From IMG/VR virus record IMGVR_UViG_3300042892_000491, positions 1 through 29,112 of that record: a stretch of 29,112 nucleotides of DNA; one strand, 5' to 3'. Positions 14,564 through 27,659 of this stretch are shown here, piece by piece; the first letter of the stretch is position 1; each line of letters opens with the position of its first letter. This DNA comes from a virus. Under the pieces are notes generated by a model. The model had not been told where the DNA came from and searched no databases. It saw only the letters and a program-made list of their open reading frames with translations. The position numbers and the translations under genes are program-made.

Positions 14564-14751
14564 TCTACTTCAGGTTGTTCCTTGCGCATTGCATCTTCAA
14601 TTTTGGTTGCTGATTCAACAATTGATTCTACTGCTGGGGCACCGAACCTATCTTCAAGGTAGTGGATGATTGCAAATATGTTTGCAACAATCCAATATAC
14701 ATCTACTGGTTCTTTCTGCTCTGTATTAGCTATGTCCTGGTGTTCTGTCAT
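14560..14751 (-). CDS. Unknown small acidic protein
   Basis: The 63-residue product (MTEHQDIANTEQKEPVDVYW...) has one mildly hydrophobic helix (YWIVANIFAIIHYLEDRFG) followed by an acidic tail. A good ribosome-binding site (GGAG about 7 bases before the ATG) lies inside the end of the upstream gene, which it overlaps by 26 bases. It ends with an ATGA junction to the next small gene. The family is not recognised. The helix is amphipathic rather than clearly transmembrane, so I do not call it a holin. Confidence 0.6.
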   Translation of the reverse strand: MTEHQDIANTEQKEPVDVYWIVANIFAIIHYLEDRFGAPAVESIVESATKIEDAMRKEQPEVE

Positions 14752-15631: not shown

Positions 15632-16049
15632 CTGTCAATAGTTTAACATACGCTTTCTTGTTGTCATCAAAATGATCGATTGTGCCCTTGGAGATGCAGG
15701 CTTCTTGCCATGCTTCTAGAGGTGATATCCACCATCGTTTTTTCGAGGAGTCGTAAACAAACAAATGTACGGGAGCCATTTGTTGCCAACGGGCAAGTGC
15801 GTTCATCTTTTCTATCTTGAACTTTAATGTCTTGTCACGACCTACACCCATGACTTCAATCATTCCGTCAACCGTGAGGAAGTCTGGAAGGAAACGCATG
15901 ATATACGGTAGTGATTGTGTGTGTAGGTTTGGTCGGTTAAGTCCGAGTCGGTGGTTCGCTGGGAATACATCTTCAAAGACTTTCTCTGCGACGTCCCCCA
16001 TTGCGCCGAAGCGTACGTGGAATGGTGATTGGTGGAATGCGTTACTCAT
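15564..16049 (-). CDS. PD-(D/E)XK nuclease-like protein
   Basis: The 161-residue protein has an early helix GDVAEKVFEDVFP (Glu for motif 1), then RFLPDFLTVDGMIEVMGVGRD. This resembles the Pro-Asp...Glu-x-x core of restriction-like nucleases, followed by a helix (KFKIEKMNALARW) and a beta-rich end. The usual catalytic Lys after the Glu is replaced: the sequence reads Glu-Val-Met, and Arg or Lys occur only a few residues later. It may therefore be a divergent or inactive nuclease. Its ATG overlaps the end of rusA by 8 bases. A role in DNA processing during replication or packaging is inferred from its neighbours; the fold call is tentative. Confidence 0.5.
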   Translation of the reverse strand: MSNAFHQSPFHVRFGAMGDVAEKVFEDVFPANHRLGLNRPNLHTQSLPYIMRFLPDFLTVDGMIEVMGVGRDKTLKFKIEKMNALARWQQMAPVHLFVYDSSKKRWWISPLEAWQEACISKGTIDHFDDNKKAYVKLLTDDFPSEPTKYDANAYAVHRQPQ

Positions 16050-16389
16050 GTTTTGTTACCAGTAGTCGTTGGACGAGTTTATCGTCAGTGTATGCAATGC
16101 CGTTCAATCCGTCCAGGATTGATTTGGCATAGTTGTCGATATCTCCTCGCAGTTTACTCGCTGGTCCATCTAGCGTTTTAACTGTAATAGTTACCTTGTC
16201 TTTGTATAAACCTATCACCATACTTACTGGTGTGTCAGCACATGGTCCATGCCAAGATGAGCCAATGTATCTTTCAAATACAAGGGTCTGTTCTGGGGTA
16301 AATACTCTACCTCTCCTGCCAAGCCTTGGGCGTTGTTTAACCTTTGGCTTGACTGGGATGGTTTGTTTGTGGTTGATTGGTTCTGTCAT
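16042..16389 (-). CDS. rusA: RusA-type Holliday junction resolvase
   Basis: The 115-residue protein is of normal RusA length. It shows the family pattern: a Pro-rich start (IPVKPKVKQRPRLGRRGRVFTP), the acidic motif RGDIDNYAKSILDGLNG at about 81-97 with Asp83, Asp85 and Asp93, then YTDDKLV with Asp102 and Asp103, and a Lys near the end. RusA dimers cut four-way DNA junctions symmetrically, which in phages resolves recombination intermediates and branched DNA before packaging. The gene starts with an ATGA overlap to the primase and overlaps the next gene by 8 bases, so it is fully embedded in the replication operon. Confidence 0.92.
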   Translation of the reverse strand: MTEPINHKQTIPVKPKVKQRPRLGRRGRVFTPEQTLVFERYIGSSWHGPCADTPVSMVIGLYKDKVTITVKTLDGPASKLRGDIDNYAKSILDGLNGIAYTDDKLVQRLLVTKHE

Positions 16390-17309
16390 GGTGTGCCCAT
16401 TGTGATTACGTATGCTCTTTCTATTAGTTTAATTAATTCTGATTCACCGTCTGCTCGGTCTTGGAACTTACCCCATCGTGCATCTGCTGAACGCACAACC
16501 ACCAACGCTTCGTTGGGTGGTATGTTTGCGTCACGCATTTTACAGGCGAGTCTAAACAGCGTGGAGGAACGGTCGTTTCCTTCTATTGGTCCGTCTCTCC
16601 ACATGATGTATGGTATTGCTCCGACTTTGCGCAGGATTTGTTTTATGTCTGCGTTATCTTCGGTGTTGGTTATGTGTACTCTCTGTGGAGGACGCCATAG
16701 GTTGGCTAGTGTGTCTAGCTGTTGTTCGGTGGTTAGGTTGGCGTTGGCTTCTTCTAGGAACTGTGTTAGTGACATAATGTTTTCATCGTTGTCTAGAATG
16801 TAGCGTTCGGCTGGTGTTTCCTTGCGGGCGTTTGGGTAAGGTAGACGTACGTAGTTGCCGTATCCTGTTCCTGCTGTTTCCTGCTTGGGGTTGACCTCTT
16901 TGGCTGGGTAGTTAATGGCTTGGTGGGCTGCTAGGAATGCTCTGCGCATTGTTGCGGCTGGTACTAGCGAGTCTGCGAACACCCAGATGTGATATCCTTT
17001 GCGTGTTCGTTCAACCCATGATGTTATTCCTTTAACGGCGAAAGACATTTGCAAGTTACGTGCTGCATCTAAGTCGTCTACGTCAATGTCTGAACACCCC
17101 CACACACAATACCAGCTGGCTTTGAATGGTAGAAGTGGGTACACACCAATAAGTTCGTCACCTTGTAGGTGTTCCAGGAACTTGTCTTGTGTCAGTGGCT
17201 GCTTGACGCATCCACCACCCCATGAACCGTATACATCACCTCTGCCTCTGAATAGTTTTGTAAACGATTCTAGAATGGCTGGGCTGATGGTAGTTCCGCT
17301 TGGCTCCAT
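16386..17309 (-). CDS. Archaeo-eukaryotic-type primase (PrimPol-like)
   Basis: The start at 17309 is chosen because AAGGAG lies 7 bases before it; the frame also opens further upstream to 17360. The 307-residue product has CSDIDVDDLDAAR at about 72-84, with the Asp-x-Asp metal site, then WVERTRKGYHIWVF at about 98-111, with the basic and His residues of motif II. GYGNYVRLPYPNAR follows near 149-162. These match the archaeo-eukaryotic primase / primase-polymerase superfamily found in many phages. The C-terminal 100 residues look helical, perhaps the helicase- or template-binding part. It would make primers, and possibly extend them, for the adjacent DnaB-type ATPase, whose gene it overlaps by 40 bases. 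Confidence 0.83.
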   Translation of the reverse strand: MEPSGTTISPAILESFTKLFRGRGDVYGSWGGGCVKQPLTQDKFLEHLQGDELIGVYPLLPFKASWYCVWGCSDIDVDDLDAARNLQMSFAVKGITSWVERTRKGYHIWVFADSLVPAATMRRAFLAAHQAINYPAKEVNPKQETAGTGYGNYVRLPYPNARKETPAERYILDNDENIMSLTQFLEEANANLTTEQQLDTLANLWRPPQRVHITNTEDNADIKQILRKVGAIPYIMWRDGPIEGNDRSSTLFRLACKMRDANIPPNEALVVVRSADARWGKFQDRADGESELIKLIERAYVITMGTP

Positions 17310-18337
17310 TGTGCGCTCCTTAAATACTGGTCGGGTAGTTCTCCGTTCTTGAGTTCCCATAGTCGTCCTGTTTTGACATCTATTTCAAAGTCCACATCGT
17401 CAACTAGCATTCCTGCTGGTCGTTTGTTTTTTAGCAGAGACAGAGTGATTGTGTACTCGTGTACTTTCTGGTCATACATGAGCATCTCTAAACGCTCTTG
17501 TGCTTTCTCTGTGTGGTTTCTGTCTAGGCGTTCTCTTAGGTCTTGTATTTCTGCTCCAATTTCCATCTTCTTTCGGCGTACACCAATGATCGATGTTGCT
17601 TGTTGTTCTCCACCGTAGGCACCTGAGGAGATGGTTAGTTTGCGTCCATCTGCTCCTGAGGTTCGTGAGGTTTGGTGTAGCACTAGCATTGGGATGTCGT
17701 GTCGTCTGCCGAATCCTTTTAGGAATCCTGCTTTCTCGGGCACTTGTTCTCCTGCTTCTACAAGTTCAAGGTAGTCAACTACTGCGAGGTCGGGCTTGTC
17801 GCCCCATACATCACACACTTCGTTGTATGCTCGTTCCATGTCTGCTGGTATTAGTGGTTGGTCAAAGACTGCAAGGTTGGGGAAGTCCTCCTCTGCTGTT
17901 TGGCGCAGTAGGTCAATGGCTTCTTTGTCGTCGTTAGCGACACGCATCTCTAGTTGACGTGCATCTATGTTGTGATGCATGCATGTCAGTTTAGTTAGCA
18001 CGAGTGTTTTGGGTTCATCGGGGATGAATAACGCTATCTTCTTGTCTCTGTTGTTGCGCAACGCATGCAACAGCACCAGTGTCTTACCACCGTGGCTGTA
18101 TCCGAGCATCATTGCTAGTTCTCCTGGGGCTATGCCACGCATCTCGTTATCTAGTGGCTCTATGCCAAGGTAAACTCTGTCTTGTGGTGATTGTGCCCAA
18201 CGCACAAACGCATGTGCTGCTTCTGTGAGTGGTACGTAATGGCGGTACTCTTTTGGAATAGAAGAAGCAGGGGGCGTAGTTCCCCCTGCCTCAACTTCGT
18301 TCCAACCCGCCTGTATTTGATCAAGCGAGAGTCTCAA
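17270..18337 (-). CDS. DnaB/RecA-fold replicative helicase-like ATPase
   Basis: The 355-residue protein has a Walker A loop GYSHGGKT at 79-86 after PGELAMML, a Walker B strand PDLAVVDYLEL at 182-192 with Asp188, and a LHQTSR sensor strand near 220-225. An arginine-rich GVRRKK segment follows, all in DnaB helicase order. It lacks the DnaB N-terminal domain, as many phage helicases do. The frame begins with TTG directly after the TAA of the upstream gene, and GGGAG sits 5 bases before it; no in-frame ATG occurs until well into the protein. With the primase encoded next, it probably forms the core of the phage replisome. Confidence 0.85.
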   Translation of the reverse strand: MRLSLDQIQAGWNEVEAGGTTPPASSIPKEYRHYVPLTEAAHAFVRWAQSPQDRVYLGIEPLDNEMRGIAPGELAMMLGYSHGGKTLVLLHALRNNRDKKIALFIPDEPKTLVLTKLTCMHHNIDARQLEMRVANDDKEAIDLLRQTAEEDFPNLAVFDQPLIPADMERAYNEVCDVWGDKPDLAVVDYLELVEAGEQVPEKAGFLKGFGRRHDIPMLVLHQTSRTSGADGRKLTISSGAYGGEQQATSIIGVRRKKMEIGAEIQDLRERLDRNHTEKAQERLEMLMYDQKVHEYTITLSLLKNKRPAGMLVDDVDFEIDVKTGRLWELKNGELPDQYLRSAQWSQAELPSAQPF

Positions 18338-18724
18338 TTACGCTCCCTTTGGTGGCCAGTAAGCTTTTTCCTTGTCGTTCACTGCTTTGAACCAAGGACG
18401 CTTTGGATTGGCTGCAAGGTCTGCACGATTGTCGTACACTTCTGTAACACCGTCACGCTGACAGGAAGATACAAGCCACTCAGGGATTGGACCTTGCTGG
18501 TCGTTCTTGATGCTGACTGTGAAGCCTGCGCTGGTTGCCTGTGGGAATGCCTTGGCTACCATTGCTTCTGGTGTTGCTTGTGCGCCACCGTAGATTGCAC
18601 TCATGAGAAGTTCGGTGACTGCTTCAAAGTTGTCCGCATACAAACCAAGGTCTGCTTTGTTGATTGTAAGTTCTGACGCAATTTTTGCGGCTACTTGTGT
18701 GATGATTGCTTTTGAGTTGTCCAT
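18338..18724 (-). CDS. Unknown replication-operon protein
   Basis: The 128-residue protein starts MDNSKAIITQVAAKIASEL. It has a helical N-terminal half and a C-terminal half with PIPEWLVSSCQRDGVTEVYD and ANPKRPWFKAV...AYWPP. The aromatic and Pro-rich ending reminds me of small proteins next to helicase and Cas4-like genes in actinobacterial phages, but I cannot name a family. A replisome accessory or single-strand DNA-binding role would fit the position; no OB-fold signature is clear. Its ATG overlaps the stop of the nuclease gene (TAATG) and its stop abuts the helicase TTG start. Confidence 0.68.
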   Translation of the reverse strand: MDNSKAIITQVAAKIASELTINKADLGLYADNFEAVTELLMSAIYGGAQATPEAMVAKAFPQATSAGFTVSIKNDQQGPIPEWLVSSCQRDGVTEVYDNRADLAANPKRPWFKAVNDKEKAYWPPKGA

Positions 18725-19608
18725 TATTGGGCTATCTCCTGTGTGTTGTTGTTTTCGAACTCGCTAATACGAGAACCTTTGCAAATTGACCAGTATGTGC
18801 ACCACTTTTCAGAGCAGAGAAAATGCTGGTCGTTTGTCATCCAAGGAGTTTCAAGTCCGAGTTTAACAAATGGTTGTACTATAGAGTCTACCTGATGTTT
18901 GAACCAGTCAACGTGGCTAGCAGTACGAATGATCGGTACTATCTGTCCTACGCTGGTGGTGGCTCGTGTCATCACTCCATAGTTAAATCTTACTGGGTAC
19001 CCTGGTGCCCATCCCATCTCCACGCTGGCATACGAGTATGCTGTCGCTTGGATGGACTGTAGTTGTTTCTCTCTTTGAGAGTATTTACGTCCTGCTGTTT
19101 TCCAGTCCCACACTAACCCGTTGGGGTCTACATAGTCCATGGTGCCACCTAGCCAAACCTCTGTGGGTTTGGTTTGTGGGTCTGTGGACGGCATGCCAAA
19201 CATGTCAATGGTTGGAATGTCAAAAAGCTTTACACCAAACTTGGCTTCAACCTGACCACCTGGCACAACTTCACGCATGATGTCACGCTCAAAGGTTCCC
19301 ATCAGTTTCTGTACATACTCACGCATGTGTGCAGGACCATTGGTTGAGTTAATCTTGTACGGTTCCTCATCCATCAGTCGGGTAAGTTCTGTATCTGCTA
19401 CTGTGTAGCCTTCCTTAACTGTTCCCCCACCTAGGTAGTGTTCAATGCCTTTGTGAACGGCGGTTCCGATGTGTGTGGCATCTGAACCTTGCCTCCACTC
19501 TGGAAGCCTTACGGCAAGTCGTGCACGCTCTGGGCATATCAGCACATCGTTAAGCCATGATTGGCGTACCCATACTTTTGTGTGGTCATCTAGTTCTTCA
19601 ATTCTCAT
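18724..19608 (-). CDS. Cas4/RecB-family PD-(D/E)XK exonuclease with probable iron-sulphur cluster
   Basis: The 294-residue protein contains the RecB-family nuclease motifs in order: HIGTAVHKGIEHYL with His52, Glu121, GTMDYVDPNGLVWDWKTAG with Asp158, Asp168 and Lys170, and LQSIQATAYSYA with Gln187 and Tyr191. One cysteine near the start (Cys25 in LICPERA) and three near the end (Cys265, Cys270, Cys276) match the split four-cysteine iron-sulphur site of Cas4 and AddB-type nucleases. In phages such proteins process DNA ends for recombination or replication; no Cas genes are nearby, so a CRISPR role is not suggested. The start overlaps the previous stop (TAATG). Confidence 0.88.
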   Translation of the reverse strand: MRIEELDDHTKVWVRQSWLNDVLICPERARLAVRLPEWRQGSDATHIGTAVHKGIEHYLGGGTVKEGYTVADTELTRLMDEEPYKINSTNGPAHMREYVQKLMGTFERDIMREVVPGGQVEAKFGVKLFDIPTIDMFGMPSTDPQTKPTEVWLGGTMDYVDPNGLVWDWKTAGRKYSQREKQLQSIQATAYSYASVEMGWAPGYPVRFNYGVMTRATTSVGQIVPIIRTASHVDWFKHQVDSIVQPFVKLGLETPWMTNDQHFLCSEKWCTYWSICKGSRISEFENNNTQEIAQ

Positions 19609-20063
19609 TAAAGTTCTCCTTTTTGTTGTAGTCGTTTTCTTAGATGGGTTACATACGATTTGTTTATCGTATAGCCAAACTCGTCAATGATTTCTTGACG
19701 CAGTGGGGTTGGCTGCATGCCCCGTCTAATTCCTCTGACTAGATACGCATACACATCCGCTGGTAAGAAGCGTGATGGTGTCATGGTTTTTTCTATCATA
19801 GGGTCGATCATTGAGTATTGAAATATTTCTTCTGCTTCAATATGTTTTCTGAACAATCTAATTGGTGGTGTCGCTTTGTTTACTAGCTCACACCAGTGTG
19901 GTATTGTGCCATCCCATTTGCCAAAGTATGCTAGTGCTTCACCGTTTAACATTTCGTGTGGTATCGCTAGATAGTTTGGGGATACTGGGGCTGTGATTTT
20001 TACGTCACATAAGCATAAGGGGTCGTGCGATATAACATCGCAACCCTCGGGTGATAAGGTCAT
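19608..20063 (-). CDS. Putative DNA-binding protein with C-terminal helix-turn-helix
   Basis: The 151-residue protein has a Cys-containing N-terminus (EGCDV, PLCLCDVK) and a middle of unknown fold. The basic C-terminal segment at about 118-151 (TPLRQEIIDEFGYTINKSYVTHLRKRL) has the spacing of a helix-turn-helix or winged helix. AGGAG precedes the ATG by 4 bases. It leads directly into the nuclease gene by a TAATG junction and follows a G-tract/hairpin element at 20103-20163. It could be a replication initiator, origin-binding protein or regulator of this operon. That is inference; no family is recalled. Confidence 0.62.
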   Translation of the reverse strand: MTLSPEGCDVISHDPLCLCDVKITAPVSPNYLAIPHEMLNGEALAYFGKWDGTIPHWCELVNKATPPIRLFRKHIEAEEIFQYSMIDPMIEKTMTPSRFLPADVYAYLVRGIRRGMQPTPLRQEIIDEFGYTINKSYVTHLRKRLQQKGEL

Positions 20064-20102
20064 GTTCTCCTGTCATGTATTTGTTATCTTGTCTTGTGGT
20101 GC

Positions 20103-20163
20103 GCCACCCCTAAGGTGGCTCACCTACGGGGTCTGGTACTTCCCCCCTCCGTTGGTTCCCCCC
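20103..20163 (-). promoter_or_regulatory. Hairpin plus paired G-tracts in the leader of the replication operon
   Basis: A perfect 6-base-pair stem, GCCACC (20103-20108) and GGTGGC (20114-20119) with loop CCTAA, lies 40 bases upstream of the gene starting at 20063. Further upstream on the minus strand are two runs of six G (plus-strand C at 20142-20147 and 20158-20163). There is no T-run after the hairpin on the minus strand, so it is not a standard terminator there. A very similar arrangement occurs at 27668-27714. It may be a leader structure or a processing site; function unknown. Confidence 0.4.
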
Positions 20164-20167
20164 AGGC

Positions 20168-20317
20168 TCACAGCCTAGCATTAGGCTTGGGCTTCTTGTC
20201 AACGGGCTCCATCTCAACGGCTTTCTTTCCTCGCTCATGCCAGTGAGTTGGGGGCTTAAATAGGGCTAGGTCTGTACCTATCCAGTGGGTGCATTTAGGG
20301 CACTGCCAGTAGTTCAT
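20168..20317 (-). CDS. 49-residue zinc-finger-like protein
   Basis: An ATG at 20317, preceded by AAAGGTGG about 9 bases upstream, opens a 49-codon frame. The product begins MNYWQCPKCTHWIG. Cys6 and Cys9 plus His11, His25 and His27 could bind one zinc ion. The rest is basic and Pro-rich (PVDKKPKPNARL). It occupies the gap between the Rpf-like gene and the replication operon. Its small size suggests a nucleic-acid- or protein-binding adaptor, but no family is recognised. Confidence 0.55.
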   Translation of the reverse strand: MNYWQCPKCTHWIGTDLALFKPPTHWHERGKKAVEMEPVDKKPKPNARL

Positions 20318-20352
20318 GGCTGATTACCACCTTTCGTGGCTTAGAACGCTTC

Positions 20353-20925
20353 TCAGCGTCTCTGACGGGACTTGGCGACCACCTTGTCCCACGCTGTCCA
20401 AGGCGCTGGGACGGGTGGTTTCAGGTACTCGTTGTTTTTGATGCAGCCCCAGCCATTAAATCCAACTGGCTGTTGGAAGTAACCGTTAGGAGCCAACCAT
20501 CCATGCAACGCAATCCTGTTCGCAATAGTGATTTGCTCTAGCCGTGTTGCGAGCCATTGCTTGGGTGCGAACTCTTGTCCACCCCAGCCCCGCCATGTCT
20601 GTATGTAAATACCGAGCCCACCAGCGAATTTACCACGATCTTTCCAGTTGCTCGCAGTTTCGCATTGAGCGACTTTGTCCCAGTATTTGTTGCTGGGTGG
20701 TTGGAGTGTAGCCAGCCACGATATATCCCACTTACTACTGTTTCGTGCTTGTACTTTTTGTTTGTGGACTTTTGGTGCTTGTGTGGTAGATGTGTTAAAA
20801 ACATATACAAATTCTTTCTTTACTGTTGTTATGGGTGAAGCCGATGCTGGCTTGTTGTCCGATAGCCAAAAGGCTAGCGTGAGAGTTAATACTAAAATGA
20901 TTTTAAGTATAGTAGATTTGTTCAT
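20353..20925 (-). CDS. Secreted Rpf/transglycosylase-like protein
   Basis: The 190-residue protein has an N-terminal membrane/signal helix (KIILVLTLTLAFWLS) ending near an Ala-Ser-Ala-Ser site at 27-30. After a basic linker, residues about 80-162 (YWDKVAQCETASNWKD, GGLGIYIQTWRGWGG, FAPKQWLATRLEQITIANRI, GWGC) match the resuscitation-promoting factor / transglycosylase-like domain of Actinobacteria. Glu89 is the expected catalytic residue, and Cys88 and Cys161 could form the conserved disulphide. It should act on peptidoglycan outside the membrane. AAGGAG precedes the start. It is encoded on the early strand, away from the M15 lysin, which is odd for a lysis gene; it may act in wall remodelling or be carried in the virion. 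Confidence 0.82.
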   Translation of the reverse strand: MNKSTILKIILVLTLTLAFWLSDNKPASASPITTVKKEFVYVFNTSTTQAPKVHKQKVQARNSSKWDISWLATLQPPSNKYWDKVAQCETASNWKDRGKFAGGLGIYIQTWRGWGGQEFAPKQWLATRLEQITIANRIALHGWLAPNGYFQQPVGFNGWGCIKNNEYLKPPVPAPWTAWDKVVAKSRQRR

Positions 20926-21136
20926 GATTGGTCTCCTTCATAAACTGAATTAAGGCAAGTTCCAGTTTATGCTTTGATGTCATTAGTAGAGCGTACTCCT
21001 CTGATACGCCGTCTTGCCATTTGGTGGATGATACTCTGCCAACTTTCTTGGCTACTTGGTCACAGCCGATACTCAGGGACTTGATGGTCGCTCGCAGTTC
21101 GTCAATGGTTAATTGTGTGTTTATGGTTAGTTCCAT
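20903..21136 (-). CDS. Unknown 77-residue helical protein
   Basis: The product (MELTINTQLTIDELRATIKSL...) is charged and helical, with no motif I recognise. The first gene after the dyad operator at 21167-21184, it starts 31 bases downstream of it. It overlaps the Rpf-like gene by 23 bases, so the two are probably co-expressed and coupled. The ribosome-binding site is weak (AGGT). A role tied to the Rpf protein is possible only by position. Confidence 0.6.
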   Translation of the reverse strand: MELTINTQLTIDELRATIKSLSIGCDQVAKKVGRVSSTKWQDGVSEEYALLMTSKHKLELALIQFMKETNHEQIYYT

Positions 21137-21166
21137 GTCGTTACCTATTTTGTTGTGTTGTGGATA

Positions 21167-21184
21167 TCTTTACAAGTGTAAAGT
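21167..21184. promoter_or_regulatory. Dyad operator, copy 1 (upstream of the Rpf unit)
   Basis: TCTTTACAAGTGTAAAGT contains the perfect inverted repeat CTTTACA-AG-TGTAAAG (21168-21183). It lies between the end of the 184-residue gene and the start at 21136. It is the only copy with AG rather than GG at the centre. Four further copies lie upstream of other minus-strand units, and none elsewhere in the window, which points to a shared DNA-binding regulator. Confidence 0.75.
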
Positions 21185-21186
21185 TT

Positions 21187-21741
21187 CTAAAAGGGTTCTG
21201 GCGCAACGGGTTCAGGCAACGCATACAGATTGTCCTCCATACGACTAGACAAGTAACTACACACACTAGACCTTAGGCTTGTCCACAGCAATGTGGTTGA
21301 GCGTTCCTTGTAGTCGTCACTAAGTTCACGCCACATCATTCTGAATGTTTCAGGGTCAAGTTCTGGCAGAGACCACACAGAGTCTCTATAGTCCGACTTG
21401 TGCATTAACTCTTTGTGTGTTTTAACAATTTCCCAGTCTGCGTCAAACACATTAATATCTCTAGCCATGTTGTTCCACATAGACATTGCGTTGTTCATTG
21501 TTAACGGATCAGTGTTTACATAGTTAATGTTACCTAGTCCTTCTGATATTGTTGTCTGTATGGTTCGTACACGACCACTGCAGAACAGGTCCTCGTTTTC
21601 TGTGCTGAACTTTTCTGACTGTACACGCATACCGTCACGGATGATTCCGTATGCATGTCGTTCTATCTCCCATTCTGTAATGCCGCTATCTGATGCGTCA
21701 ATGGTAAATTCTATTGTCATGCTAACTTGATATGATTTCAT
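21187..21741 (-). CDS. Unknown 184-residue protein in the amidoligase operon
   Basis: The protein opens with a beta-rich MKSYQVSMTIEFTIDASDSG, then a helical middle with many Met, Trp and Asp/Glu (NNAMSMWNNMARDINVF, FRMMWRELSDDYKERS). It has no known motif. AGGAG precedes the ATG by 7 bases. It overlaps the preceding 100-residue gene by 4 bases (ATGA type) and is the fourth gene after the operator at 24247, downstream of amidoligase and glutamine amidotransferase. It could be an accessory or substrate of that pathway; this is a guess from position. Confidence 0.62.
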   Translation of the reverse strand: MKSYQVSMTIEFTIDASDSGITEWEIERHAYGIIRDGMRVQSEKFSTENEDLFCSGRVRTIQTTISEGLGNINYVNTDPLTMNNAMSMWNNMARDINVFDADWEIVKTHKELMHKSDYRDSVWSLPELDPETFRMMWRELSDDYKERSTTLLWTSLRSSVCSYLSSRMEDNLYALPEPVAPEPF

Positions 21742-22040
21742 TTGTTTCTCCTAAGTAGGTTTGTTTTTTGTTTTGGGTGCCATGATGCGTAATACACGCA
21801 GTACATTTTGTCTGTGTCAATGACTAAGTTGTTGCCGTCGTCATAAATAAGTGGGTATGCTGTAACGCTGATGCGGTTGTCGTCTACATAAAGATTTATA
21901 TCTTGCCTGTTGAGAGGGTTGATATCTTCCATGTTGTATGTGTCCCACACATCATCGTAGTCGTTGTGTTTGTTCTTGCGCATCCAATGCTCAGCCATTT
22001 GTTTGGCGTAAGCATAGATGTCTGTATGTTTGTTTATCAT
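21738..22040 (-). CDS. Unknown 100-residue protein in the amidoligase operon
   Basis: The start at 22040 is chosen because AGGAG lies 5 bases before it, right after the stop of the amidotransferase gene; the frame opens further upstream, but that part overlaps the preceding gene. The product (MINKHTDIYAYAKQMAEHW...) has an N-terminal helix with several His, Tyr and Asp residues, then a beta-rich half (NLYVDDNRISVTAYPLIYDDG, KMYCVYYASWHP). It is not recognised. Tight spacing (7 bases after the amidotransferase stop, 4-base overlap with the next) makes it part of the amidoligase operon. Confidence 0.62.
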   Translation of the reverse strand: MINKHTDIYAYAKQMAEHWMRKNKHNDYDDVWDTYNMEDINPLNRQDINLYVDDNRISVTAYPLIYDDGNNLVIDTDKMYCVYYASWHPKQKTNLLRRNK

Positions 22041-22047
22041 GTATCTC

Positions 22048-23013
22048 CTAGAAGTAATAGTCTTTGTCTGAGTCGTAACCACCCCGTTGTAGTGATGGCA
22101 CATACAGTTGGGACTCACGATAATCATCAACGATGTCGGACTGTGCACCCATACATCTACACAACATTCGTGGCTCTGAACAGAACCAACACGAGTCACA
22201 CTGTGAACACAGGTCAGCATGGTTTACATTCTGTTCGTTGATGTACTCAATGTGGTCACAGTTGGCGCATCGCCACAGTTCACCCCACACTTCGTTGCCG
22301 TCGTTGTCAATGTATGTACAATCCTCAACAAGTAAAGACTGGTTATCCCACATGTCGTAATCGTATTTGGTTGTGTCAATACTGTATCGTGAATCAGGTG
22401 GTGTCTTGCCAGTAGATGTCCAGCCAGTAGTGTACATGCCGTGTCCTGAGTATGTGTAACGGTCGTACTTGTAACTATTGTTTGACCACCATACACCCTC
22501 AGCCCAATGCCCTAGGTCCTGGTTGATGATGTAATAGTCATCTTGAACATCAGGATTGGCAGACAGAAAAACAAGTTTAGAACCATCAGCGAACTTGGAT
22601 AGTTTCTTGCGTGTTTTCTTGCTGTTGAGTGTTGATGCACCACCCCAACTAGGGAATAGTTCCTTAGCAAAGATAGCGGTGTCACTCATACCGTTGCGAG
22701 CCGCAATCGGCAACATGCCGTTGTGTGCTACAACCGTGTTAGTGTCCTTGCCAACTTGGAATGGGTGACAGTTGTTGATGTTAGTACCGCCATGTGTTGT
22801 GATACGGGAGTGAAACAACGCAGGACCCGAATGGATTGCTCGTGTCTTGAGGAAGTTATCCAACACGGCATCAAAGTTGAGCCCGCTACCTTTCACAATG
22901 TGTGTACCAGCATGAACAGCGTAACCAAACCCGTCAGGGTTGTTCTGTGAACCAATAGCCAATGAATCTACATCCGCTGTTGTGTACTCTTGCATGAATG
23001 TTAATAAACACAT
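22048..23013 (-). CDS. Class II (Ntn) glutamine amidotransferase with C-terminal zinc-binding tail
   Basis: The 321-residue protein begins Met-Cys-Leu-Leu, so Cys2 can serve as the N-terminal nucleophile after Met removal. Further class II signatures are PDGFGYAV at 26-33, FHSRITTHGGTNINNCHPF at 67-85 with Arg70, and VVAHNGML at 94-101 with Asn98-Gly99 for the oxyanion hole. These enzymes release ammonia from glutamine or move glutamyl groups. The last 80 residues add several Cys pairs (CANC, CSQCDSCWFC, CRC), a zinc-binding tail not typical of the family. It lies 5 bases downstream of the amidoligase gene and is surely co-transcribed, suggesting it feeds ammonia or a glutamyl group to that ligase. 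Confidence 0.86.
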   Translation of the reverse strand: MCLLTFMQEYTTADVDSLAIGSQNNPDGFGYAVHAGTHIVKGSGLNFDAVLDNFLKTRAIHSGPALFHSRITTHGGTNINNCHPFQVGKDTNTVVAHNGMLPIAARNGMSDTAIFAKELFPSWGGASTLNSKKTRKKLSKFADGSKLVFLSANPDVQDDYYIINQDLGHWAEGVWWSNNSYKYDRYTYSGHGMYTTGWTSTGKTPPDSRYSIDTTKYDYDMWDNQSLLVEDCTYIDNDGNEVWGELWRCANCDHIEYINEQNVNHADLCSQCDSCWFCSEPRMLCRCMGAQSDIVDDYRESQLYVPSLQRGGYDSDKDYYF

Positions 23014-23018
23014 ATTTC

Positions 23019-24203
23019 TTATATGCCTTTCGTTGTGGCGTAAGCATCAAATGCTTCATAGCCGTTTTGTTTTGTGAATTGGCGGAAACGATCCCAGTCG
23101 TGACTAGCCTTGATGTTGATGTTGTACATTTGTGTGACGCTGTACTCCGCTACTGCGTGTACACCCTCTAGTCGTGCTTGGATAGTTTTGGGGTTGAGTG
23201 TGCCCTTGAAGAAACGCAACTCCAATGTGTTGCGTGGCTGTAAGTTGAGCGCAACATACCTGTCGTTGTTTGACTGTCGTGGATAACCTGAGCGTAAGCC
23301 CTTGGCGTAACGCAACATCTGTGTCGCTTCGTGGTCGTCCCATTGTGCGTATGTTGAACGGCTACGACCAGCAAGTGTTTTCCACTGGTCGGTGTTGCGA
23401 TAAAACATAGACATGAAACGATACAAAGATGACTCTCTACCCTCAAAGAATCCCTTGTTGATGTGAACATGAAGCCCACAGGTTCTTGTAGTAGCAGAAC
23501 GCATACCAATGTCAGACAACTCACGCAATCGTGCGAGTGGTAATACATTTTGTATGTACTCTTTAGTCATGGGGTGAGATACGACCTCAAACCCATTGCT
23601 AAGAGAACCGTCGTGCTTGAGATAACAAGACTCACCAAATATTTCTGTGGCAAGTTCTGCACCTTCACTAAGGTCACAACCATCTGCTTCCATTTCTAAC
23701 TCAAAGCCAGTCACACTGATGCGTCGTGGCTCTCGCATGGTTGTAAACATCTTGATGTCCTTGGTTAGAACATCAGGGCGCATACCATGGAAGATAGGGT
23801 CAGGACGGAAACTGTAGTCGTGAATCAATCGTGAACTTTCTTGCATCTCATCTTCGCATGAACAACCAGGTCCGTTGTCAATATGATAAACATTGTCACA
23901 GTATTCGCAACTGCTGTACTGTTCGTAACACGACTCGCATCGCATCTCATCCCAGCCTATGTCCATCATGTTGTCACGCTCTACATACAACCGACAGTCT
24001 GTACAGTATGTATGCTCATCGTCACAGTCTGCACAAAAGTATTGTGCGTTACCCGTTGTTAATGCTTCGTGTATGTCTTGGCGTCGCCAGTACGAGGTGT
24101 CCTCGTCCAAACGAATTGTTAGTGCCTCTATTAAGTGTTGGTCGTGACAGATACAGCACTCTGCTATTGCTGTTGGTTGTCCTAATGGTTCTTCTGTTGT
24201 CAT
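23019..24203 (-). CDS. Amidoligase (glutamine-synthetase-fold COOH-NH2 ligase) with N-terminal zinc-ribbon region
   Basis: The 394-residue protein has two parts. Residues 16-116 hold many Cys pairs (CCIC, CADC, CTDC, CESC, CEYC, CSC), probably two or three zinc-binding units. Residues about 162-360 match the Amidoligase_2 family: VTGFELEME at 164-172, KHDGSLSNGFEVVSHPMT at 196-213, RTCGLHVHI at 240-248 and NTLELRFFKGTL at 325-336. These supply the acidic, His and Arg residues of the ATP and metal site. The family is predicted to join carboxyl and amino groups using ATP, making peptide-like or amide products. AAGGAGG sits before the ATG, and operator copy 2 lies 44 bases upstream. It is the first gene of an operon with glutamine amidotransferase next. 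Substrate unknown. Confidence 0.87.
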   Translation of the reverse strand: MTTEEPLGQPTAIAECCICHDQHLIEALTIRLDEDTSYWRRQDIHEALTTGNAQYFCADCDDEHTYCTDCRLYVERDNMMDIGWDEMRCESCYEQYSSCEYCDNVYHIDNGPGCSCEDEMQESSRLIHDYSFRPDPIFHGMRPDVLTKDIKMFTTMREPRRISVTGFELEMEADGCDLSEGAELATEIFGESCYLKHDGSLSNGFEVVSHPMTKEYIQNVLPLARLRELSDIGMRSATTRTCGLHVHINKGFFEGRESSLYRFMSMFYRNTDQWKTLAGRSRSTYAQWDDHEATQMLRYAKGLRSGYPRQSNNDRYVALNLQPRNTLELRFFKGTLNPKTIQARLEGVHAVAEYSVTQMYNINIKASHDWDRFRQFTKQNGYEAFDAYATTKGI

Positions 24204-24246
24204 TGTGTACCCTCCTTGGGTGTTGTATTTTTATTTGTACATCTGG

Positions 24247-24268
24247 TTTCTTTACAGGTGTAAAGAAA
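24247..24268. promoter_or_regulatory. Dyad operator, copy 2 (upstream of the amidoligase operon)
   Basis: This is the longest copy: ten-base arms TTTCTTTACA and TGTAAAGAAA flank a GG centre. It ends 44 bases before the amidoligase start. On the minus strand the segment before it is AT-rich (TGTATTTCT), which could hold a promoter -10 element, so a bound protein would block initiation; this placement is inference. Confidence 0.78.
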
Positions 24269-24317
24269 TACAGATTGTTGGTTGATAGAATATTTACAGT
24301 AGTCAAATCGTCAATGA

Positions 24318-24575
24318 TTACTGGGGTTTGTGGTACACATTTCCATTGATGTCACACAACCTCCTGTCAAAGATGGGTGATATACGCCACGCTAAGCCGA
24401 CATTGTTAGCACGCTCAAACTCAAGCAAGTCATCTTCATCAACATAAGTCAAACGCTCAGTAACAGTATTCACTGCTTGCCAATACTTAGGCTTCACACC
24501 TCCCTTGCGTGCTCTCTCAACGCAACGAGCCAAGTCGTTGTCGTACTGCTTGCGTGATGATGATTGTTGTTTCAT
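24318..24575 (-). CDS. Unknown 85-residue protein
   Basis: The product has a basic N-terminal helix (MKQQSSSRKQYDNDLARCVERARKGG) followed by a mixed alpha/beta part ending CDINGNVYHKPQ. AGGAG precedes the ATG by 8 bases and lies in the end of the upstream gene. It is the last of three genes (50, 82 and 85 residues) that follow operator copy 3. A 114-base gap with operator copy 2 separates it from the amidoligase gene. No family or function is recognised. Confidence 0.6.
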   Translation of the reverse strand: MKQQSSSRKQYDNDLARCVERARKGGVKPKYWQAVNTVTERLTYVDEDDLLEFERANNVGLAWRISPIFDRRLCDINGNVYHKPQ

Positions 24576-24824
24576 TTATTTATCTCCTAGGTATGTGTTG
24601 TTGTATTTGCTAAGTAAGCGGTCAAACAATAAAGCATAAGCCATCTCGTCATCTTGCTGTACATCCAATGGGGTGTCAATAATCTTATGCCATGAACCCG
24701 TGTCATCATTCCATAAAGGTTTGTTGTACGGGACATTCACTGAACTATCTAGTGCGAAAGACACAACACCATCAGTGATTGTGGCTCGCACCATAAAGTA
24801 ATGCTCATAATTATTAGTAGTCAT
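24576..24824 (-). CDS. Unknown 82-residue protein
   Basis: GAGGAGG six bases before the ATG at 24824 fixes this start; an upstream in-frame ATG at 24854 lacks one. The product (MTTNNYEHYFMVRATITDG...) looks like a beta-rich domain followed by a helix (DDEMAYALLFDRLLSKYNN). It overlaps the preceding gene by 11 bases and directly precedes the 85-residue gene. Not recognised. Confidence 0.6.
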   Translation of the reverse strand: MTTNNYEHYFMVRATITDGVVSFALDSSVNVPYNKPLWNDDTGSWHKIIDTPLDVQQDDEMAYALLFDRLLSKYNNTYLGDK

Positions 24825-24966
24825 TGTCGTCCTCCTCAAAAGAAAACAGTTCATAGTCTGAAAGGAAATCTCTCAAACGGATAGGTTGCTCATCTGAATA
24901 ACGATCGATGTCTAGTTTGTGTAGACATTGTTCAAGGAACCACATAGTGTGGTTTCGTAGTCGCAT
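24814..24966 (-). CDS. Unknown 50-residue acidic protein, start abutting operator copy 3
   Basis: The C-terminal part (DFLSDYELFSFEEDDNDY) is clearly shaped as a coding tail and carries the ribosome-binding site of the next gene. The start is uncertain. ATG at 24966 touches the operator and has almost no leader. ATG at 25011 would place the whole operator inside the coding region, and ATG at 24945 has no ribosome-binding site. I annotate 24966 as a compromise. The protein begins MRLRNHTMWFLEQCLHKLD. If transcription starts within or just after the operator, the mRNA would be leaderless or nearly so, which Actinobacteria tolerate well. Confidence 0.45.
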   Translation of the reverse strand: MRLRNHTMWFLEQCLHKLDIDRYSDEQPIRLRDFLSDYELFSFEEDDNDY

Positions 24967-24983
24967 CTTTACAGGTGTAAAGA
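24966..24983. promoter_or_regulatory. Dyad operator, copy 3
   Basis: TCTTTACAGGTGTAAAGA is a perfect dyad with a GG centre. It abuts the likely start of the 50-residue gene. On the minus strand TATTCT, which fits a TANNNT -10 hexamer, lies immediately upstream of the dyad core. Confidence 0.76.
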
Positions 24984-25107
24984 ATAGAGTGAAGCGTAAA
25001 CGCCTGTTCATATTGGTAGGATACTTTCTGTTGAATGAAATATGACATGAACTGCAAGGCAGAACATAAAGTGTTGGATAAAGTGTTTCATGATTAGAGA
25101 CTAGACA

Positions 25108-25239
25108 CTATTGTGCGTAGTCAGCCTCCTCATCAAACGATTCTGTGTTTTCTTCTGGTGAGTCAATCACGGGAATGAGTAAGTCAATGAATGACTCCCA
25201 TTCGGCAATGATATTCTCTTGTGTTTCTACTGGCAACAT
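25108..25239 (-). CDS. 43-residue acidic protein
   Basis: ATG at 25239 with AAAGGG about 7 bases upstream opens 43 codons ending in TAG. The product (MLPVETQENIIAEWESFIDL...) is strongly acidic and helical and ends EEADYAQ. It lies between the 73-residue gene and operator copy 3. No family is recognised. The good ribosome-binding site and open frame support it, but it is short. The 97 bases between its stop and the 25011 ATG hold nothing I can identify. Confidence 0.5.
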   Translation of the reverse strand: MLPVETQENIIAEWESFIDLLIPVIDSPEENTESFDEEADYAQ

Positions 25240-25272
25240 GATGTTACCCTTTCTGTTTTGTCCCCATTAGTG

Positions 25273-25310
25273 GAGAGTCATGCCCACGAGCCGAAACCCG
25301 TGGACACTCA
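25273..25310. other. Hairpin-forming intergenic segment
   Basis: CCACG and CGTGG pair around a ten-base loop, and flanking GAGT/ACTC segments could extend the structure after internal bulges. It lies in the 87-base gap before the 43-residue gene. It could be a leader structure or a weak transcription attenuator; there is no T-run to make it a standard terminator. Confidence 0.3.
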
Positions 25311-25326
25311 CTCAACTATTAGATAG

Positions 25327-25548
25327 TTATCGTACGACTGTCACATAACCCTCACGCAAAGACTTTATGTGTCGTTGCCAACAAGCATGAAGAACACTTT
25401 GATAAGCATCACAATCATATTTGGAATCAAACTCAATTAGAGTTTGATTACAATCAGTAACACCACAAGTAGCAGACTGTGTAAACACAACCAAACCTTG
25501 ATTAGCAACACGGTCATAACCAACAACTGTTTCGTTATTTATCTTCAT
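25327..25548 (-). CDS. Unknown 73-residue protein with three or four cysteines
   Basis: The product starts MKINNETVVGYDRVANQG and contains CGVTDC, then CDAY and HACWQRH, so a small metal site is possible. It follows the 61-residue gene by two bases, and its ribosome-binding site (GTAGGT) is weak and lies at the end of that gene. It is in the unit that starts at operator copy 4. Function unknown. Confidence 0.55.
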   Translation of the reverse strand: MKINNETVVGYDRVANQGLVVFTQSATCGVTDCNQTLIEFDSKYDCDAYQSVLHACWQRHIKSLREGYVTVVR

Positions 25549-25550
25549 GA

Positions 25551-25736
25551 CTAGCGACCTACAATCACAGTAGGCATCAACGGAAGCAAACCGTCAATCG
25601 CATCAGTAAGCATGTCAGCAAAGTCAGTATCATAAGACACTTCCTCTTCATAATCACGCCAAGTTTGTAACTCGTCAAGCAATTCACTTATTTCTTTTTT
25701 GACATCATTCCATGTCTTGTGTATTTCCGTAGACAT
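25551..25736 (-). CDS. Unknown 61-residue acidic helical protein
   Basis: The product (MSTEIHKTWNDVKKEISELL...) is an amphipathic, acidic helix followed by a short hydrophobic end (LLPLMPTVIVGR). A GGAG ribosome-binding site lies about 7 bases before the ATG. It is the first gene downstream of operator copy 4, 83 bases away. Small acidic proteins of early phage regions often bind host proteins, but nothing here shows a target. Confidence 0.57.
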   Translation of the reverse strand: MSTEIHKTWNDVKKEISELLDELQTWRDYEEEVSYDTDFADMLTDAIDGLLPLMPTVIVGR

Positions 25737-25818
25737 CTCTGTCTCCTTTGTTTATCTAACTAATCGTCAGCAACACTCACAGGTGTTGTACGCCTAACGG
25801 CGTTTCATAGGGTAGATA

Positions 25819-25834
25819 CTTTACAGGTGTAAAG
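25819..25834. promoter_or_regulatory. Dyad operator, copy 4
   Basis: CTTTACAGGTGTAAAG is a perfect dyad with a GG centre. It sits two bases past the end of the gene at 25837-26286 and 83 bases upstream of the 61-residue gene. On the minus strand CATAATTCT directly precedes it and could include a -10 element. Confidence 0.75.
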
Positions 25835-25836
25835 AA

Positions 25837-26286
25837 TTATGCGAACCGCATGTTCTTTGCGATGATAAGCGCTGTCTTGCGCTCAACACCATTAGCAACC
25901 AACTCTTTCACAAGGTCAGCACCTGAAATAGTGCGAACCTTGTAGTTCGTAGTGTCCTTGACAGTAGTAACTGGCTTAGCCTTTGATGCTTTGATATGAC
26001 CCATAGACTTCCACTCTTTCGGACCGCCGAGAAGATTCTCAACAGCCCACGCAATCGTAGAGATTTGCTGTGCAATAGTGGACTCCTTCCAGATGTCAAT
26101 GTTCTTACCACGAGCCTCACGAACAGCGAGTCGTGCATACTCGGCAACATTCTTGAAGTCTTTGCTGTCAAGGTAGATAGCGTGCCACGATTGTACTCGT
26201 GACAACTCTGCCAAGTTCACTCCTTTCACAAGTGAAACAAAGTTAGTGGTCTTGCGTGTAGTACGCTTGCCTGTTGTTGTAGTAAT
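25837..26286 (-). CDS. Unknown early protein, apparently starting at ATT
   Basis: The frame is unambiguous from a GTG at 26229, but no ribosome-binding site precedes that codon. Further upstream in the same frame is an ATT at 26284-26286, placed 6 bases after a near-perfect AAAGGAG. ATT is a rare but real initiation codon. Starting there gives 149 residues with a Thr/Lys-rich N-terminus, then VKGVNLAELSRVQSWHAIYLD, a helical centre (IDIWKESTIAQQISTIAWAVENLLGG) and a basic linker. The C-terminal helix pair (ISGADLVKELVANGVERKTALIIAKNMRF) looks like a small protein- or DNA-binding domain. Operator copy 5 lies 21 bases upstream of the ATT. The family is not recognised. A sequence error that changed ATG to ATT is possible. 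Confidence 0.62.
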   Translation of the reverse strand: MTTTTGKRTTRKTTNFVSLVKGVNLAELSRVQSWHAIYLDSKDFKNVAEYARLAVREARGKNIDIWKESTIAQQISTIAWAVENLLGGPKEWKSMGHIKASKAKPVTTVKDTTNYKVRTISGADLVKELVANGVERKTALIIAKNMRFA

Positions 26287-26306
26287 GGGATTCTCCTTTG
26301 AGAAGT

Positions 26307-26324
26307 TCTTTACAGGTGTAAAGA
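26307..26324. promoter_or_regulatory. Dyad operator, copy 5
   Basis: TCTTTACAGGTGTAAAGA is a perfect dyad with a GG centre. It lies just before the ribosome-binding site of the ATT-start gene. On the minus strand TACTCT, a TANNNT-type hexamer, lies immediately upstream. This copy also marks the edge of the structured non-coding region at 26339-26606. Confidence 0.77.
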
Positions 26325-26338
26325 GTATTTGTTATGTA

Positions 26339-26461
26339 TGTATCTGATAGCCCCACCAAGTTCCTAGACTAGATAGGTAGACAGGCGTTGTGCCTTCTAC
26401 TAATAGTTTCTACGCCTAATACACGCATTCATGTGTATGTGCTAGAAGGCTCACAGATACA
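26339..26461. ncRNA. Candidate structured RNA with nested stems and a pseudoknot
   Basis: Within the roughly 370-base gap between genes, several exact complementary segments nest. An 8-base outer stem pairs TGTATCTG (26339-26346) with CAGATACA (26454-26461). An 8-base inner stem pairs GCCTTCTA (26392-26399) with TAGAAGGC (26443-26450). An apical stem pairs ATACAC (26419-26424) with GTGTAT (26433-26438). AGGCGT (26383-26388) pairs with ACGCCT (26412-26417) across the inner stem, giving a pseudoknot or a switch between two folds. More short stems follow at 26476-26494 and 26579-26605. The strand is not determined: it could be a long leader of the ATT-start gene on the minus strand or a plus-strand RNA. 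I do not recognise the family; it is not a tRNA or tmRNA. Confidence 0.45.
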
Positions 26462-26473
26462 GGCTGACACGAC

Positions 26474-26509
26474 CTAGGGGAGTAGGCCACCCCTGCCGCC
26501 ACTTGTCAT
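26474..26509 (-). CDS. Possible 11-residue leader peptide
   Basis: A strong GAGGAG lies 6 bases before an ATG at 26509. The frame encodes MTSGGRGGLLP and stops at TAG. The end of the mini-ORF overlaps a 5-base-pair stem, AGGGG/CCCCT (26476-26494). If this region is a minus-strand leader, translation of the peptide could control folding downstream. It is short enough to arise by chance. Confidence 0.25.
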   Translation of the reverse strand: MTSGGRGGLLP

Positions 26510-26656
26510 AAGGGACTCCTCTTGCGCAGGGAGCGAGCTACACGTTTTATAGGAAGGGTGGTTTTGGGCACACAGATAGGGGCCGCCTTGTTTCAATAAG
26601 GACCCTGGTTTGTATTTGCTATATGTGGTATGGTTTTTGTGGGGTTTGGATAGGCC

Positions 26657-26956
26657 CTAGCAGTCCCATTTACGCAGTGCTAGTGTTTTGCGTGTGGGTT
26701 TTCCGTTTGGTTTGGTTGCTGGTCCTGGCATTCCGCCCATGCGTGCGCAGAATGATTTTCTGCGTGCAGCTGATTTGGGGGATTTGGAGGCTTGTTTGGC
26801 TGAGACGGGTGGCTTTAGTGTGCCTCCTGTTTGGGCTTTGTAGGATGCTCGTCCTTTAGCGTTTAATCCGCCTGCTGGGTTTTTGCCTTCGGATCGTGTC
26901 CAGGCTGCGGTTTTGGGTGCGGCTTTCTTTTTGGCGGGTGCCTTCTTAAATGCCAT
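26657..26956 (-). CDS. Conserved small basic phage protein (DUF6321-like)
   Basis: The 99-residue protein is very basic (MAFKKAPAKKKAAPKTAAW...). It shows a pattern I recall from many marine and freshwater phages: WTRSEGKNPAGGLNAKGRASY, then LKPPVS, RRKSFCARMGGMPGP, KPNGKPTRK and a C-terminal LRKWDC. I believe this is the family called DUF6321. Its function is not known to me; the composition suggests binding to DNA, for example packaged genome. AGGAG precedes the ATG. It overlaps the end of the upstream gene by 11 bases and is the last of three genes on the minus strand near the terminase. The 370-base region downstream holds the candidate structured RNA. Confidence 0.8.
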   Translation of the reverse strand: MAFKKAPAKKKAAPKTAAWTRSEGKNPAGGLNAKGRASYKAQTGGTLKPPVSAKQASKSPKSAARRKSFCARMGGMPGPATKPNGKPTRKTLALRKWDC

Positions 26957-27236
26957 GTTGTTCTCCTAGTATTTCTATAGATGTGATCCATCCAAGAGGG
27001 ACGTGGTTTATGTCTCCTACACATTCAGGGTTTGGTAGTTCTGATTCAAAGATTGTACCTACTATTGTTAGGTAGCCTTCTTGGCAGTCTTTCCAATACC
27101 TGCCTAATGTGGTGGCTGTTGACTCTTTAGGTTCATAGGTTTCTGGGTTGTGCCATCCACTGTCGGGTGAGTGGGCGTCTTTCCATTTGACTTTAAGTTC
27201 TGTCCATTCTGGTAGACCTACCAGTTTGTCCAACAT
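26946..27236 (-). CDS. Unknown 96-residue protein next to the terminase region
   Basis: ATG at 27236, just after the stop of the upstream gene, is preferred; a TTG at 27260 in the same frame would overlap that gene. The product (MLDKLVGLPEWTELKVKWKD...) is Trp- and Glu-rich, contains HSPDSGWHNPETYEPKES, and has a beta-rich end (EGYLTIVGTIFESELP, WITSIEILGEQHG). I do not recognise it. The ribosome-binding site is weak (CTAAG), so translation may be coupled to the upstream gene. It could be a minor virion or assembly protein with its two neighbours. Confidence 0.62.
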   Translation of the reverse strand: MLDKLVGLPEWTELKVKWKDAHSPDSGWHNPETYEPKESTATTLGRYWKDCQEGYLTIVGTIFESELPNPECVGDINHVPLGWITSIEILGEQHGI

Positions 27237-27237
27237 G

Positions 27238-27567
27238 TTACTTAGCCGTACGGTCGCCAATGATTGAGACGGTGGCTGTACCAGAAGTATAGGATGTCAT
27301 TTGTACACGGAAACTTTTTATATGTGCTTCATGTGAAAAAATTCCGTTAATGGTAGTTGTTGCTTGCTGGTCGTAGTTGTTTGCACGACCAAGGGACTGC
27401 ATACACCAAGGCAAATAGTTTGTTCCATCGATAGAACCACTAAAAGAGATGGTTCCTACCCACGTGCCAGATACTTGCATTGCAAATGTGTCTGCACCGT
27501 CAAGGTTTACATCTACTGCAGCGTTTAAAACCCCTAGTGTTCCTGTTGTTGTTGATGGTGTTATCAT
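27238..27567 (-). CDS. Beta-rich, probable virion-associated protein
   Basis: The 109-residue protein is rich in Thr, Ser, Gly and Val with alternating strands. The core WVGTISFSGSIDGTNYLPW resembles small beta-sandwich domains found in phage decoration or fibre proteins. The end is SGTATVSIIGDRTAK. AAGGAG lies 6 bases before the ATG. It is the first gene of a three-gene minus-strand unit that diverges from the terminase genes, an unusual orientation for a structural protein. The virion role is inferred from composition. Confidence 0.68.
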   Translation of the reverse strand: MITPSTTTGTLGVLNAAVDVNLDGADTFAMQVSGTWVGTISFSGSIDGTNYLPWCMQSLGRANNYDQQATTTINGIFSHEAHIKSFRVQMTSYTSGTATVSIIGDRTAK

Positions 27568-27596
27568 GGGTTTCTCCTTAGTTGGGTGTTTAAATC

Positions 27597-27659
27597 TGTA
27601 TATGCTAAATTGGATCAGGTACGGGGCTACGCTTATGCTCGCCCCGATGTATATGCTAA
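27597..27659. repeat. 12-base direct repeats flanking an inverted repeat
   Basis: TGTATATGCTAA occurs exactly twice, at 27597-27608 and 27648-27659. Between them CGGGGC (27622-27627) and GCCCCG (27641-27646) can form a 6-base-pair stem. The set lies in the leader of the minus-strand unit and about 110-170 bases upstream of the small terminase. It could be a regulator-binding site or part of a packaging or end-formation signal. Confidence 0.55.

Follow-up and report, generated by a model that had tools for sequence, protein, structure and literature searches.

Neighbouring genes for an amidoligase and a class II glutamine amidotransferase were predicted in phages by Iyer et al. (2009; doi 10.1039/b917682a), to whom two citing papers (PMC10580990, PMC11318856) attribute a predicted role in wall or peptide modification and, for phiEco32, the suggestion of superinfection exclusion. 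The stretch examined here, IMG/VR virus record IMGVR_UViG_3300042892_000491 (29,112 bases; hereafter the window), carries such a pair on its minus strand: the amidoligase gene AL is followed by the amidotransferase gene GAT, which starts 5 bases past it, and then by two small genes, g100 and g184 (Table 1). As in the systems of Iyer et al., a PF12224-type ligase adjoins a class II amidotransferase, and 187 distinct such pairs were found here among phages, plasmids and the genomes of actinobacteria; the eight-cysteine tail of the window GAT and its phage-specific operator regulon set it apart from those systems as the two citing papers describe them. The pair itself is not new, since it is known from that work, from mycobacteriophage Marvin and from OM43 phages. 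Rather, the window adds an actinophage-type form with a Cys tail to a predicted system that was known already, and its regulation by phage-specific operators is the new and less expected part.

Other described phages resemble the window to different degrees. Marvin (gp105–gp106) and other cluster S phages likewise encode AL followed by GAT, with about 29% (AL) and 31% (GAT) identity, and keep both the eight GAT cysteines and a Cys-rich stretch in AL. Unlike the window, these phages are without g100 and g184, and no repeated palindrome was found in the 8.4 kb of Marvin examined. The OM43 (Methylophilales) phages MEP401 and MEP402 and LUZ24-like Pseudomonas phages also combine an amidoligase with GAT, but the GAT of MEP402 has no Cys tail, and LUZ24-like phages add genes for ATP-grasp, PF14395 and gamma-glutamylcyclotransferase (GGCT)-like proteins.

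Table 1. Features of the AL-GAT operon, its operators and the candidate regulator (window positions; GS, glutamine synthetase; Ntn, N-terminal nucleophile; aa, amino acids)
Feature	Position	Strand	Basis or remark
AL, Amidoligase_2 (PF12224), GS/GCS-fold carboxylate-amine ligase, 394 aa	23019..24203	-	Pfam, fold, residues
AL N-terminal Cys-rich module, predicted zinc-binding	23856..24158	-	conservation in 187 distinct pairs
GAT, class II glutamine amidotransferase (Ntn glutaminase, GlmS-like), 321 aa, Cys2 nucleophile	22048..23013	-	Pfam, profile, Foldseek
GAT C-terminal module CxxC-x16-CxxCxxCxxC-x6-CxC, predicted zinc-binding	22153..22269	-	alignment A5 and 187 pairs
g100, small protein, third operon gene, 100 aa	21738..22040	-	without family; close relatives only
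g184, fast-evolving protein, fourth operon gene, 184 aa	21187..21741	-	C-terminus ...EPF
Operator palindrome CTTTACACCTGTAAAG upstream of AL	24250..24265	.	repeat family
Operator palindrome CTTTACACTTGTAAAG between g184 and g77	21168..21183	.	repeat family
Operator palindrome upstream of g65 gene	24967..24982	.	repeat family
Operator palindrome upstream of g61/g73 genes	25819..25834	.	repeat family
Operator palindrome upstream of g130	26308..26323	.	repeat family
g130, candidate autoregulatory operator-binding protein, 148 aa if ATT at 26283 is the start	25837..26283	-	operator upstream

The coordinates, strand, protein lengths and 5-base gap given in an initial annotation of this DNA are correct, and its two family assignments hold in profile searches, as AL matches PF12224 (E 9e-9, 36 bits; Pfam gathering cut-off 22) and GAT matches PF13230, GATase_4 (E 1.1e-6, 28 bits; cut-off 23). 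Searching solved structures with the AL sequence gave no match, whereas the fold search did. The AlphaFold model of AL (mean pLDDT 89, from an alignment of 65 sequences) has YbdK as its best Foldseek match and also matches glutamine synthetases, gamma-glutamylmethylamide synthetase, PafA and Dop; the match to 1r8g (E 3e-6, probability 1.00, TM-score about 0.4) places it in the YbdK/GS fold. Invariant or nearly invariant residues in AL are G166, E168, E170, D198, E206, H245, H247, R280, N320, E328 and R330. Each of E168, E170, D198, E206, H245, H247, N320, E328 and R330 is retained in 183–187 of the distinct pairs, and E168, E170, E206, H245, H247, E328 and R330 are universal among the aligned rows. 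Their spacing (ExE; D, then E eight residues on; HxH; ExR) is what we take to be that of GS. The predicted acidic metal/ATP site with its Arg is intact, and the loss of ATP-site residues among homologues, which the initial annotation had named as evidence against its own proposal, is almost never seen across the distinct pairs.

The GAT site is equally well preserved. In the predicted structure (mean pLDDT 81), the catalytic part is mostly above 90 and the tail is uncertain. Foldseek returned the GlmS glutaminase domain 1xff (E 4e-8), then PurF and EgtC (E 6e-4), and the GAT profile also finds 1xff by sequence (E 8e-5). Almost every one of the distinct pairs retains C2, R70, T73, H83, N98 and D111; C2, R70, N98, G99 and D111 are found in 183–186 of about 186 aligned sequences, with the Cys directly after Met. 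As predicted from these residues, the glutaminase site is complete and of GlmS type. A GAT homologue in Kineosporia (locus L203, 7908-8582) starts MSLLTYLP instead of MC..., has no adjoining amidoligase and is a probable inactive relic.

Both enzymes carry the Cys-rich extensions described in the initial annotation. In AL, up to twelve cysteines, mostly in CxxC pairs, lie N-terminal to the catalytic domain (C16, C19, C57, C60, C67, C70, C89, C92, C99, C102, C114 and C116). C67 and C89 each occur in 180 distinct pairs, C92 in 178, C70 in 175, C16 in 139 and C19 in 133, and a minority of lineages, for example loci L049 and L051, have a short form of the module. In GAT, each of the eight tail cysteines (249, 252, 269, 272, 275, 278, 285 and 287) is found in 167–171 of the 187 pairs; they are invariant among 73 aligned phage sequences (alignment A5) and missing in more distant homologues (Methylophilales, gut and others). 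To judge from the alignments, these are conserved modules and not chance features, and they would bind zinc. Two loci (L066, 3134-3940; L076, 3145-3954) encode, upstream of AL, an additional amidoligase that is shorter and has no Cys module; the one in L066 has its own copy of the operator described below.

AL and GAT are constant companions. A search with either one alone brings up the other next door, and both genes are present in 201 of the 210 loci with a homologue, some of which overlap on one contig. Viral contigs selected by AL that do not show GAT stop inside AL or just past it; the single further case of AL alone is given below. The order AL then GAT is found in the 187 distinct pairs, contradicting the initial annotation's other refuting scenario, that the two enzymes never occur together in related phages; in 183 of them the genes overlap or lie within about 130 nt. 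The conservation of all four genes in this order was borne out for AL and GAT and not for g100 and g184, which are absent or replaced. The divergence of AL follows that of GAT closely (Mantel r 0.91 for 115 distinct pairs; shuffled maximum 0.10).

The pair also occurs in actinobacterial genomes, mostly of Nocardia and often in the tandem AL-GAT-AL-GAT (e.g., loci L182, L192, L195 and L198), and on three mycobacterial plasmids of 144–156 kb (NZ_CP025548, NZ_CP065286 and NZ_CP015269). The actinobacterial loci would be mobile elements, judging from their neighbours: DUF4192 genes, genes that we read as ParB-like and single-strand DNA-binding protein (SSB)-like and, in some, an M23 peptidase gene. 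GAT bears the annotation glucosamine 6-phosphate synthetase on two of the three plasmids and no annotation on the remaining one. PADLOC models gave no match for AL, GAT, g100, g184 or the Nocardia and Actinocatenispora neighbours, which speaks against membership in a known anti-phage defence system. In phages, such pairs have been recognized since 2009 but without an assigned substrate; constant pairing, intact sites, Cys modules and a spread over phages, mycobacterial plasmids and actinobacterial genomes now define a compact two-protein enzyme that is directly testable.

The best account of this enzyme is that AL and GAT form a split glutamine-dependent amide synthetase, each supplying one subunit, because a complete glutaminase adjoins a GS-fold ligase; we give this a probability of about 0.5. 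In the course of events that we infer, GAT would hydrolyze glutamine with its N-terminal Cys nucleophile and pass the ammonia to AL, which, with ATP and metal ions, would convert a substrate carboxylate to an acyl-phosphate that the ammonia would turn into a primary amide. The Cys-rich modules, probably zinc-bound, would serve subunit docking, substrate recognition or both. Expression of the pair would fall early in infection and be governed by a palindromic operator specific to the phage, probably read by an autoregulated protein of the g130 type, and the gain, we guess, would be that the infected cell is protected from rival phages or from lysis from outside. An amide or isopeptide bond had been proposed initially; a primary amide made by ammonia delivery is favored over the isopeptide bond because the glutamine site of GAT is complete beside a GS-fold ligase.

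In MurT/GatD the ligase is of the Mur type and its glutamine amidotransferase partner belongs to class I, and LtsA is an asparagine-synthetase fusion. In MurT/GatD and LtsA/AsnB, a glutaminase supplies ammonia to a cytoplasmic partner that activates a carboxylate with ATP, the substrates being peptidoglycan precursors, and AL and GAT would work alike. However, AL has the GS fold and not that of a Mur ligase, and GAT is class II and not class I, so that the pair falls outside the MurT/GatD type. By analogy with these enzymes, our leading guess is that the substrate carboxylate belongs to a surface peptide or to a precursor of the cell wall in the cytoplasm. A signal sequence is not evident by eye in AL or GAT; both appear cytoplasmic, and the acceptor would therefore be a cytoplasmic carboxylate.

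Several points weigh against a split amide synthetase that acts on the wall. The TM-scores of the AL fold matches are modest (0.3–0.5), and C. difficile phage AR1086-1 has AL without GAT, the sole case not due to a contig end. The correlation between AL and GAT distances is owed in part to common phage ancestry. The hosts of pair-bearing elements differ strongly in their envelopes, so that a wall target is not forced; the identity of the substrate is a guess, and no experiment behind the idea of wall modification or competitor exclusion was found in the literature. Finally, GAT may be a gamma-glutamyl hydrolase like EgtC.

In ergothioneine synthesis, EgtA, an amidoligase of the GCS family, adds a gamma-glutamyl group that EgtC, a class II Ntn enzyme, later removes, and the window likewise combines a GCS-family ligase with a class II Ntn enzyme. 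In the same manner, AL could form a peptide-like bond, for example between an amino acid such as glutamate and a small molecule, a wall peptide or a protein, with GAT as the amidohydrolase that trims or reverses it. EgtC is indeed among the Foldseek matches of GAT, the best structural match of AL is a carboxylate-amine ligase, YbdK, with PafA and Dop also matched, and the LUZ24-like phages place their PF12224 gene next to a second ligase gene (PF14395) and to the ATP-grasp and GGCT-like genes mentioned above. Nevertheless, we consider this combination of ligase and hydrolase unlikely, though ahead of the other alternatives: EgtC hydrolyzes a gamma-glutamyl intermediate, whereas GAT lies nearer to the GlmS glutaminase in both sequence and structure and fully retains its glutamine-binding residues, and the Pfam scan of two near-complete relatives found no third ligase or cyclotransferase family.

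Next in order comes modification of a host or phage protein, such as RNA polymerase, a defence protein or a virion protein, which the Cys-rich modules would recognize. With no candidate target gene conserved beside the pair and no defence-related match in PADLOC, this appears improbable, even if the modules on both enzymes are conserved and recognition-like, AL shares its fold with PafA, a protein-modifying ligase, and the pair occupies an operator-controlled position adjoining the replication genes. This last neighborhood would also suit DNA hypermodification, in which the pair would amidate a carboxylated base of phage DNA, and phages are known to employ amidotransferases in base modification. 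We regard this last alternative as very improbable and have set it aside, as the pair also resides on plasmids and in actinobacterial genomes and the Pfam scan found no base-modification family in two near-complete relatives or among the scanned window genes.

The operator control claimed in the initial annotation is well founded. The palindrome CTTTACA-NN-TGTAAAG has five copies in the window, each upstream of a leftward gene (AL, g77, g65, g61/g73 and g130), and the near-identical phages L002, L003 and L006 retain these operators. In others, whose AL is 86–89% identical, that position is taken by another palindrome (TGTAAG-4-CTTACA in L004, GTTAGA-2-TCTAAC in L009). When families were defined by letter-for-letter identical arms within a phage, a palindrome in at least three copies was found in 90 of 114 informative phage loci; the maximum over 40 shuffled sequences was one, and no comparable palindrome recurring three times was found in shuffled control sequences. 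Of these 90 loci, 66 have a copy no more than 160 bases ahead of the called start of AL, and 44 have one at the AL/GAT junction. About 100 phages (relatives L004-L081 and L109-L181) have at least 42 distinct cores, with spacers of 0–6 bases. Since the spacer varies (in 81 of 95) while the arms stay constant, the operators look as expected for the sites of a dimeric DNA-binding protein; an RNA hairpin is disfavored on the same grounds, and because some palindromes have no spacer.

The likely reader of the operator is a protein of the g130 type, which would also regulate its own gene. All 28 distinct g130-like proteins found in phages that have an operator family are directly preceded by an operator copy, and comparison of genes between close relatives indicates that the N-terminal half of g130 is replaced when the operator changes. 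In addition, the neighboring operator types CTGAGA and CTGATA pair with TIRT and TIRQ, respectively, at the same spot in the putative recognition helix of g130-like proteins, a link that is suggestive only. In the window, the likely start codon of g130 is ATT, with a good ribosome-binding site ahead. A broader proposal, which we put forward tentatively and consider rather doubtful, is that, across a large group of integrase-less and probably actinobacterial phages, AL and GAT are part of a small regulon, expressed early, in which each phage or small phage group has an operator (at least 42 cores) and an autoregulator of its own. The g130 type would be a new family of DNA-binding regulators that switches specificity fast, and the pair the effector of the regulon against rival phages. 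If this is true, the pair would alter the infected cell while the regulators of rivals could not silence it. The private operators provide a readable specificity system, which predicts when the pair is made and supplies natural variants in which to study how DNA recognition shifts among phage regulators.

A Pfam scan assigned no family to g100 or g184, which thus remain unrecognized, as initially described. Their proposed role as substrate or carrier did not survive the comparison with relatives: g100 is limited to the nearest ones, and g184 occupies a fast-changing slot that holds proteins of 209–268 aa in the next circle of relatives and other, unrelated proteins further out, where AL-GAT is intact. 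An obligate substrate or carrier is thereby ruled out. Homology of g184 to its positional equivalents was not adopted, the best profile match having an E-value of 0.002 at 13% probability. A Glu/Asp/Gln-Pro-Phe C-terminus recurs in the slot after GAT in several lineages, in proteins that are otherwise unalignable (window 21187-21741; L029 6936-7739; L034 4873-5661; L044 7151; L047 4584), and recalls the C-terminal tip of SSBs.

The window encodes tail proteins in its left half and a terminase at its right end. A leftward gene block at about 14,100–27,600 encodes RusA, an AEP-type primase, a DnaB-like helicase, a PD-(D/E)XK exonuclease, an Rpf-like transglycosylase and many small proteins, and its replication genes adjoin the AL-GAT pair. 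The phage is probably podovirus-like, because near-complete relatives have SU10/P22-type portals in the Pfam scan, and its host would be actinobacterial on account of the Rpf-like gene, a WhiB-like gene recognized by eye in relatives and the presence of mycobacteriophages among those relatives. No tyrosine integrase (PF00589), serine recombinase (PF00239) or HTH_3 repressor (PF01381) was found in 30 records, several of them fragments, which gives no support to a classical temperate immunity region; as no integrase or resolvase was found, a lytic-phase role fits better. Elsewhere in the window, the protein encoded on the minus strand at 14726-15631 has a sigma-70 region 4-like helix-turn-helix and, after it, a weak match to DUF1599 (nucleotide modification associated).

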